Origin: Clostridia bacterium
Lineage (GTDB): Bacteria; Bacillota; Clostridia; Christensenellales; Aristaeellaceae
Direction: 5' to 3'
Assembly: GCA_017527065.1 (NCBI GenBank)
Contig: JAFXQO010000003.1
Coordinates: 1-64,000 of the forward strand
Length of the DNA: 64,000 bases
Part shown: positions 12,198 through 63,947 of the stretch, piece after piece
Layout of the letters: each line of letters starts with the position of its first letter
Numbering within the stretch: position 1 is the stretch's first letter
The notes under the pieces: model-generated
Told to the model about the DNA's origin: nothing
The model's database searches: none
Seen by the model: the letters and a program-made list of their open reading frames with translations, nothing else
Made by a program: the position numbers and the translations under genes

Positions 12198-13262
12198 TTG
12201 ATTATGACGAGACAGGTTATCGCGGGCGGCGTGGCCATCGGCGGCGGCGCGCCGGTGACGGTTCAGACCATGACCAACACGGATACGCGCGATTTGCAGG
12301 CCACCTCCGCGCAGATCGCGCGGCTGGCCGCGGCGGGCGCGGACATCGTGCGCGTGTCGGTGTTCGACGAGGCCTGCGCGGACAACGTGCGCCCGCTGGT
12401 CGATTCAAGCCCTGTGCCGCTGGTGGCGGACATCCACTTCGACTACCGGCTGGCCATACGCTCGATTGAGAACGGCATCTCCAAGCTGCGCATCAACCCC
12501 GGCAACATCGGCGGGGAGGCGAAGGTGAGGATCCTGGCCGACTGCCTCAAGGCGCACCATATTCCCGTGCGCGTGGGCGTGAACGCCGGTTCGCTGGAAA
12601 AGGACATTCTGGCCAAATACGGCGGCGTGACCCCAGAGGGCATGGTGGAGAGCGCGCTGGGCCACGTGCGGATGCTGGAAAGGTGCGGCTTCTACGACGT
12701 GGTGATCTCCATGAAGGCCCCGGACGTAAAGCGCACCATCGAGAGCTACCGCCTCGCGGCCAAAACCTGCGATTACCCGCTGCACGTGGGCGTGACCCAC
12801 GCGGGCTCCGAGGGCATGGGCCGCGTCAAGAGCGCCATCGGCATCGGGGCGCTGCTGGCCGACGGCATCGGCGACACCATCCGCGTGTCCCTCACGGGCG
12901 ATCCGCAGCCCGAGGTGGCCGCGGGCATCGACATACTGCGCGCGGTGGGCCTGCGGGGCGGCGTGGACGTGATCGCCTGCCCGACCTGCGGGCGCACCTG
13001 CATCGACGTGGAGGCCATCGCCCGCCGGGTGGAGGAGGCGACGCGCGCCATGAAGGCCGATCTCAAGGTGGCCGTGATGGGCTGCGTGGTCAACGGGCCG
13101 GGGGAGGCCAGGGAGGCGGACATCGGCATCGCCGGCGGCCAGAACGGCGGCGCGCTGTTCGTCAAAGGCGAAGCGCCCCGTCCCGTGCGCGGCGACCTCT
13201 TCGAGGCGCTGATGGAAGAAATCAGGAAGAAAATGGGGAACGGGGAATTAGGGCGCGGCTGA
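12198..13262 (+). CDS. ispG: 4-hydroxy-3-methylbut-2-enyl diphosphate synthase
   Basis: Iron-sulfur enzyme of the MEP pathway that converts MEcPP to HMBPP. 354 residues. VTVQTMTNTDTRD opens the TIM barrel; ISKLRINPGNIG and CPTCGRTCID with GCVVNGPGEAREADIGIAGG supply the cluster ligands. GGAGGG is 6 bases before a TTG at 12198 and 12 before an ATG at 12204, so either could be used. The last codons (NGELGRG and stop) are encoded inside a dispersed repeat at 13232-13349, so the C-terminus is not native to the family. Confidence 0.96.
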   Translation: MIMTRQVIAGGVAIGGGAPVTVQTMTNTDTRDLQATSAQIARLAAAGADIVRVSVFDEACADNVRPLVDSSPVPLVADIHFDYRLAIRSIENGISKLRINPGNIGGEAKVRILADCLKAHHIPVRVGVNAGSLEKDILAKYGGVTPEGMVESALGHVRMLERCGFYDVVISMKAPDVKRTIESYRLAAKTCDYPLHVGVTHAGSEGMGRVKSAIGIGALLADGIGDTIRVSLTGDPQPEVAAGIDILRAVGLRGGVDVIACPTCGRTCIDVEAIARRVEEATRAMKADLKVAVMGCVVNGPGEAREADIGIAGGQNGGALFVKGEAPRPVRGDLFEALMEEIRKKMGNGELGRG

Positions 13263-13349
13263 GGCCGCGCGGGGGAATGAGGCCGCGGCGGCTTCGGCGC
13301 GTTCCTTTCGGGCAAACTTCACCCCATTTCCAATTTTCCATTCCCCATT
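13232..13349 (+). repeat. Dispersed operon-junction repeat, copy A (118 bases)
   Basis: Bounded by AATGGGGAA (13232-13240) and its inverted copy TTCCCCATT (13341-13349). Inside is the hairpin GCGCGGC-TGAG-GCCGCGC (13253-13270). The ispG stop (13260-13262) is part of the hairpin loop, and the right end stops just before the polC ribosome site. Copy B at 28306-28405 has the same ends and the same hairpin in the same relation to its flanking genes; copy C starts at 63902. Confidence 0.85.
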
Positions 13350-28305: not shown

Positions 28306-28405
28306 AATGGGGAATTGGAAAGGGGGAAATTATAATTTGCTCTCAGGGAACTGGCGGGGGTCGCCTTCGTCCCGCGCGGCCTCAGCCGCGCCTCAATTCC
28401 CCATT
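28306..28405 (-). repeat. Dispersed operon-junction repeat, copy B (100 bases)
   Basis: Ends are AATGGGGAATTG (28306-28317) and its perfect inverse CAATTCCCCATT (28394-28405). The hairpin GCGCGGC-CTCA-GCCGCGC is at 28374-28391. Read on the minus strand it begins in the last codons of the BaiN-type gene, gives that gene its stop, and ends just before the ribosome site of the next gene, exactly as copy A does between ispG and polC. Confidence 0.85.
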
Positions 28406-56482: not shown

Positions 56483-56513
56483 TTCCCCGCCGTCTCCCTT
56501 CCAGCAAACTAAA

Positions 56514-56551
56514 ATTCCTAATTCCCAATTCCAAATTCCTAATTCCCAATT
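56514..56551 (-). repeat. AATTCCC tract: 17-base direct repeat at the etfA-GNAT junction
   Basis: ATTCCTAATTCCCAATT occurs at 56514-56530 and 56535-56551, a 21-base period. On the minus strand it reads GGAATTGGGAATTAG and supplies the final codons and stop of etfA. It resembles the arms of repeat copies A-C but lacks the GC hairpin. Confidence 0.8.
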
Positions 56552-63901: not shown

Positions 63902-63947
63902 AATGGGGAATTGGGAATGGAGAATGGAGGCGCGGCTGAGGCCGCGC
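63902..63947 (+). repeat. Dispersed repeat, copy C (left part; right end beyond or near the window edge)
   Basis: AATGGGGAATTG (63902-63913), two further GGGAATGG/AGAATGG steps, then GCGCGGCTGAGGCCGCGC (63930-63947), identical in 18 bases to copies A and B. No inverted right end was found before base 64000. Here it lies upstream of a divergent gene, not at a visible operon junction. Confidence 0.8.

Follow-up and report, generated by a model that had tools for sequence, protein, structure and literature searches.

Short elements at gene junctions

The window, the entire 64,000-nt stretch analyzed, contains four short elements, A to D, beside protein-coding genes:

13232..13349, plus strand: element A, with a short left arm AATGGGGAACGGGGAATT, an 18-mer hairpin and a right arm with terminal CCATTCCCCATT, in the gap between ispG and a polC-type gene.
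13253..13270, plus strand: 18-mer core of A, containing the ispG stop TGA.
28306..28405, minus strand: element B, with left arm AATGGGGAATTGAG, the 18-mer and a right arm ending ...CCAATTCCCCATT (minus-strand reading), in the gap separating an aminoacetone-oxidase-type gene from the minus-strand gene that comes next.
28374..28391, minus strand: 18-mer core of B, containing the stop TGA of the upstream gene.
56513..56551, minus strand: element D, one period-7 arm followed inward by TTTTAGTTTGCTGGAAGG, at the junction of an ETF-alpha-type gene and an acetyltransferase-type gene.
63902..63947, plus strand: element C, a left arm (three AAT units) and the 18-mer, antisense to the adjoining minus-strand genes.

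The 18-mer GCGCGGCTGAGGCCGCGC occurs three times in the window, at 13253-13270 (+), 28374-28391 (-) and 63930-63947 (+), and nine times in the source genome (G000), confirming the hairpin that a first-pass annotation had described as common to A, B and C. With up to three mismatches allowed, the window gave seven matches (mean 1.4 and maximum 5 in 100 shuffles). The inverted ends ascribed to A and B are likewise real: AATGGGGAAT is present four times against 0.13 expected, at 13340-13349 (-), 28306-28315 (+), 28396-28405 (-) and 63902-63911 (+). Together, the inverted ends AATGGGGAA/TTCCCCATT and the three 18-mers exceed chance in the window.

Element A begins in the last codons of ispG and reaches to just 5' of the start of the polC-type gene. 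The ispG frame terminates in ...KMGNGELGRG*, with its TGA inside the 18-mer, and the gene upstream of B, encoding an aminoacetone-oxidase-type FAD protein, ends in ...ANGELRRG* with its TGA inside the 18-mer of B. Each of these two elements fills the gap between two co-directional genes, and in both cases the upstream gene enters the element and stops at the 18-mer TGA. In D, a further member not listed in the first-pass annotation, which carries no 18-mer and for which no second arm was seen, the stop TAG of the ETF-alpha-type gene falls within the array. C lies antisense beside minus-strand genes, at no sense junction, and no right arm was seen for it. The proposed placement "exactly at operon junctions" therefore holds for A, B and D and not for C. 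A, B and D sit between protein genes, outside the 23S rRNA gene. The window gave no Rfam match, and at gathering score none was obtained in the seven sources searched. A to D contain no S23 ORF; a longer copy elsewhere in the genome has an S23 gene.

Comparison with related genomes

The ispG–polC junction lacks arms in all three same-genus genomes that have it (G001, G002 and G003). At site B, the two aligned pieces of G001 lie 41 bases apart and no arms are present; G003 was too diverged there to judge and G002 was represented by pieces only. At the level of sequence comparison, A is an insertion, and B is an insertion relative to G001. G004 carries an element at the same place as B with a different middle, so B either was inserted before the split of G000 and G004 or marks a place hit twice. 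Identity of the relatives amounts to 75–85% at A and, at B, to 78–83% (G001, G004) or 66% (G003), which is too low for the exact insertion site to be read from them. Target duplication was not significant in 14 strictly paired copies (mean 1.86 versus a null of 1.41, reached by 11.6% of 500 shuffles).

These comparisons support the earlier proposal of a dispersed family inserted at gene junctions, with many copies and with empty sites in relatives. Two outcomes named beforehand as counting against it, a core confined to three copies and a spacer inherited vertically, both fail, given the nine copies in the genome and the empty ispG–polC junctions.

Inverted heptamer arrays

Besides the nine exact 18-mers of G000, ten were found in the same-genus G004 and one in G002, with none in the same-genus G001 and G003; the other 55 genomes searched yielded one, which has no arms. 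The 18-mer was rejected as the family hallmark, being one of several middle modules. What is constant around the 18-mers is AAT every seven bases, in arrays facing inward from either end. What marks the family is two arrays of 7-nt units (AATNNGG) in inverted orientation, with five AAT motifs in most arms (38 of the 61 counted). The array pattern AATNNGGAATNNGGAAT, which detects AAT-type units only, gave 113 forward and 111 reverse matches in G000 (224 in all), versus 0 + 0 for the reversed-pattern control.

Just inward of the arms, AGTTTG- or AGTTAC-like letters appear in about 31 of 56 listed ends (manual count), often followed by TGAAAGG; in other ends, the 18-mer or a hairpin lies directly inward of the arm. 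The middles vary and consist of the 18-mer, REP-like hairpins or a gene. REP-like hairpin modules occupy the middles of L017, L018, L019, L103 and L086 (ACCTCATCCGGCGC.., TTCCCC..GGGGAAGG; CCCCTCAGTC..GGGGAGC).

A four-unit pattern run over 100 genomes of the bacterial family was abundant in some and near zero in many, with genome-specific spelling. G086 was the array-richest genome seen (2,153 pattern matches versus 114 in the control), and array counts in G009 and G119, for example, mean less because their controls are also high. Several G000 contigs (C3, C25, C29, C43 and C51) start or end inside or near arrays, so arrays may be assembly breakpoints.

S23 genes between matched arms

The only PF05635 match in G000 (S23, "four helix bundle protein"; also TIGR02436) lies inside an element, G000:C11:18594-19090, whose ends are similar to those of the family. 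Just inward of these ends, its letters (CAGTTTGTCTGAAA; ATAGTTACTGGGAAA) are like the ones in the small copies. In a late check, G004, which stood outside the 100-genome draw, had a single PF05635 match, with AATTCGC x4 + AATT on one side and a matching array in inverted orientation on the other. In that genome, the arms of two 18-mer copies (L016 and L020; GCGCAAT type) are spelled like the S23 gene arms (L312), AATTCGC / AATTGCG. S23 genes are annotated in many genomes and, to our knowledge, have no known function.

Across the 100 genomes, PF05635 was matched in 26, comprising 9 of 11 array-rich versus 17 of 89 other genomes (p 6e-5), where array-rich denotes a net count of at least 40, a cut-off picked after the counts were seen. 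G002 and G095 are array-rich yet have no PF05635 match. There were 39 S23 matches in all, and loci were returned for 30. Inverted period-7 arms, each with a spelling of its own, flank 16 of these 30; among the 14 that fail, several show repeats of another kind in their flanks (hairpin arrays of TTTCAC type) and some match weakly. An armless S23 subclass (L139, L140, L142, L143, L144, L146) is flanked by TTTCAC/TTTCAT- or ATATCGC-type units forming short hairpins of ~20 nt each.

We then scanned genome contigs for one S23 subtype, using alignment A2 (11 of 26 sequences) because A1 (all 26) was too diverse, and took the best 80 of at least 587 loci. By record title, these 80 belong to Bacteroidales, Clostridia, Ignavibacteria, SAR202, KSB1, Kiritimatiellae, Verrucomicrobia and others. 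Of the 77 with enough flank, 68 carry inverted period-7 flanking arrays and nine fail, the test being an inverted pair above all 20 shuffles with a best lag of 7. Arm spelling is alike within a locus and different between loci. Among 60 full-length loci from the same best 80, a value of at least 35 was reached in 46/60 when a locus was compared with its own arms, in 3/60 when arms were cross-paired and in 0/60 with displaced flanks (~700 bases), indicating that arms match within an element and not between elements. Counted by period-7 run length, five motifs are present in 70 of the 136 arms of the 68 loci, again drawn from the best 80 of at least 587.

Among 17 plasmid or phage S23 loci, assessed with no shuffle control, 13 have period-7 inverted arms. 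The exceptions are L256 (an inverted repeat lacking period 7), L310 (at cas10-cmr3; a short 8-nt repeat), and L309 and L311 (none). Two phage records match S23, and the one inspected gave no arms. Planktothrix strains sharing an S23 locus (L252-L254, 2390-3010) have different numbers of heptamers in its arms, and in a Nostoc plasmid S23 element (L255, 2925-3190) the right array, made of GACTTGC/GACTTAC heptamers, is very long. As candidates for empty sites, an Oscillatoria DISARM operon was dropped because another gene occupies the gap, and a search of Nostoc plasmids contributed none.

Orientation and neighboring genes

Longest-ORF calls were made on 68 S23 loci (from the best 80 of at least 587), with 19 ambiguous and nine lacking an ORF call. 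In the 40 callable loci, S23 is in sense to both neighbors in 36, mixed in three and antisense to both in one. Many gaps between S23 and its neighbors are under 30 bases, and others span several hundred. Sixteen annotated plasmid loci, hand-picked from the matches, place S23 in sense to both neighbors in 11 (of which three come from Planktothrix strains), against the direction of the upstream gene in three and antisense to both in two. Sense arrangements on plasmids include cas6-S23-cas4 (Anabaena sp. 90, Pseudanabaena) and drmD-S23-methyltransferase-type gene (Planktothrix), with further sense cases at hsdS-S23-hsdR (Monoglobus, the S23 frame broken by stops) and cas10-S23-cmr3 (Picosynechococcus). 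The antisense plasmid cases lie between cas2 and cas1 (Anabaena cylindrica) and in Euhalothece. S23 genes within CRISPR, DISARM and restriction operons of plasmids (L305, L308, L310, L252-L254, L257, L304) may be mistaken for parts of those systems.

For 20 copies of the 18-mer, automated orientation calls returned 12 "++", four "+-", three "--" and one uncalled. After reassignment of L008 to "--" on reading of its ORFs, 15 of 19 copies are in sense to the upstream gene (one-sided p 0.01).

Origin of the arrays

A to D are likely to belong, as truncated or non-coding members, to a family of heptamer-armed insertions associated with S23. There is good support for the family claim, and the 18-mer finding is the small end of a larger pattern. 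Several other origins were weighed. The arrays might be simple heptamer repeats that polymerase slippage has expanded in situ within tolerant spacers, with the inverted pairs and nearby S23 as side effects. Unit numbers indeed vary among Planktothrix strains with the same S23 locus, and slippage at heptamers is proposed in the available part of PMC4692102. Slippage, however, cannot yield same-spelled arms flanking a gene (own arms 46/60 versus cross-paired 3/60), gives no shared inward letters and sits poorly with the absence of A as a unit in three relatives; we regard it as quite unlikely. MITE-like movement by an unseen DDE transposase, with S23 as a mere passenger, would fit the short non-coding copies with inverted ends and the longer, gene-carrying relative. 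Yet the arms are variable, locus-specific arrays with no single fixed end sequence, the gene of the longer copies is S23 across phyla and no transposase was seen in the coding relative, the search for transposases having covered the Y1 family. Target duplication was also not significant in the 14 paired copies. This origin appears unlikely.

REP/BIME elements, to which the first-pass annotation had likened the repeats, share with the family the occurrence of hairpins in operon spacers. A corresponding mover would be a transposase of the Y1 (RAYT) type, or else a reverse transcriptase helped by S23 in the manner of Avd, a related four-helix-bundle family of the diversity-generating retroelements. 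Y1_Tnp is indeed found in 7 of 11 array-rich versus 27 of 89 other genomes (p 0.04), G000 has two RVT_1 matches, and one family S23 weakly matches the Avd model (38.9 bits, cut-off 80). Against this, Y1_Tnp has no match in G000 (89% complete) or in G086, and RVT_1, present in 2/11 array-rich versus 25/89 other genomes and absent from G086, does not track arrays; the G000 S23 gives no match to the Avd model at E 0.001, and the S23 match of L145, with an RVT_1 match ~550 bases away, lacks arms. Neither Y1_Tnp nor RVT_1 explains the array distribution, and movers of this kind are very unlikely. The REP/BIME likeness itself was abandoned, since G000 has no Y1 match and what defines the family is heptamer arms rather than a REP palindrome. 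A gene-regulatory role of the arrays based on G-quadruplexes, which have been studied in GGGAATC and GGGGA(C/T)T repeats, could draw on the G tracts in G000 arms and on the in vitro quadruplexes reported for those repeats, which adjoin aligned ORFs (PMC4692102, available part). Yet none of the 68 left arms flanking S23 genes (from the best 80 of at least 587), which share the architecture, has four GGG or CCC tracts, making such a role barely credible. Period 7 as an all-frame translation stop was also discarded, as three-frame stops in 43 of 68 left arms show no enrichment over a null mean of 43.7.

Relation to known heptamer repeats

The best reading of the insertion family is that it is akin to the intervening sequences (IVSs) of 23S rRNA and to the heptamer repeats of cyanobacteria and Xanthomonas. 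In the accessible portion of PMC4990558, the Coxiella 23S rRNA IVS forms a long stem from its inverted ends, which is cut by RNase III in vitro, and bears tandem heptamers (GACAGAT) 5' of the S23 ORF in strain-variable number; its authors doubt S23 production there. S23-type IVSs resemble the family in their S23 ORF, stem-forming inverted ends and tandem heptamers, and their mobility has been suspected by others (PMC4990558, same portion). The family differs from them in its location at protein-gene junctions, in its mirrored heptamer-array ends and in the lack of an ORF in A to D.

Heptamer repeats have been known since at least 1999 with no settled role, according to the text of PMC4692102 as far as accessible. 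That text describes GGGAATC and GGGGA(C/T)T repeats as intergenic, adjoining aligned ORFs and generally not associated with mobile elements, their role being open. Two Xanthomonas genomes contain 70 and 75 close inverted heptamer pairs, 83% of them kept between the genomes, which speaks against frequent movement there. The arrays of our family likewise consist of 7-nt units, lie in spacers between aligned ORFs and frequently form inverted pairs, and both kinds vary in unit number. The Xanthomonas and Nostoc repeats differ in spelling and are treated as quadruplex repeats rather than insertion ends; neither "S23" nor "helix bundle" is mentioned in the accessible text of PMC4692102. The TAACTGA heptamers of Beggiatoaceae, Cyanobacteria and Bacteroidetes are also intergenic arrays, with a patchy distribution suggesting transfer and no transfer mechanism evident; unlike the family, they are described as direct repeats, and no S23 or four-helix term occurs in the available part of that paper (PMC4679880). 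The label "new-looking" given to the repeats thus stands as regards Rfam and gives way as regards similar heptamer repeats already described (PMC4692102 and PMC4990558, in their accessible parts). The literature searched, with most subscription journals outside its reach, contained no S23 genes outside rRNA linked to heptamer arms.

Proposed mechanism and implications

The predicted RNA folds of A and B have z scores of -3.86 and -4.08, and long stems are predicted in all five elements folded (A, B, two other small copies and the S23 element; z -3.9 to -7.3), with stem formation predicted for the inverted ends of the family. An mRNA-processing role, raised in the first-pass annotation, would be compatible with these predicted stems. 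Members of the family end in inverted arrays of 7-nt units, and its gene-bearing form carries one small gene, an S23 four-helix-bundle gene (PF05635/TIGR02436). In the mechanism that we propose, the element would be co-transcribed with the host operon and its arms may pair into a long RNA stem; RNase III-type cutting, or a stem left unused, would render the insertion tolerable, by analogy with S23-type IVSs in 23S rRNA. Small elements probably persist because they are located in transcripts where the stem or the cut does no harm.

The S23 relatives 2rld and 2gsc comprise five chains each. The latter is XCC0516, a name that we take to imply Xanthomonas campestris, an organism also treated in PMC4692102. 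Speculatively, each subunit of an S23 pentamer might bind one of the five motifs in an arm, and S23 might help the element to spread, acting in trans for the small copies; the small copies need not be moved by S23. We know of no nuclease domain in S23, and cutting and joining would come from functions other than those found here.

Taken more widely, and as a tentative reading that we hold to be possible rather than probable, S23 elements could form a bacteria-wide mobile class, composed of two heptamer-array arms and one pentameric four-helix-bundle protein with no known nuclease, and entering in sense at co-directional gene junctions. The heptamer repeats of cyanobacteria, Xanthomonas and gut Clostridia would then be non-autonomous copies, 23S rRNA intervening sequences one landing site, S23 genes in CRISPR, DISARM and restriction operons passengers, and the five motifs per arm the counterpart of five S23 subunits.

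Overall, these findings suggest that the seven-letter repeats and the S23 genes are parts of a single type of selfish element. If they are one element, heptamer repeats would be insertion ends and S23 a selfish gene, some extra genes in defence operons would be passengers, and a direct binding test would be available, with five-motif arms against pentameric S23.
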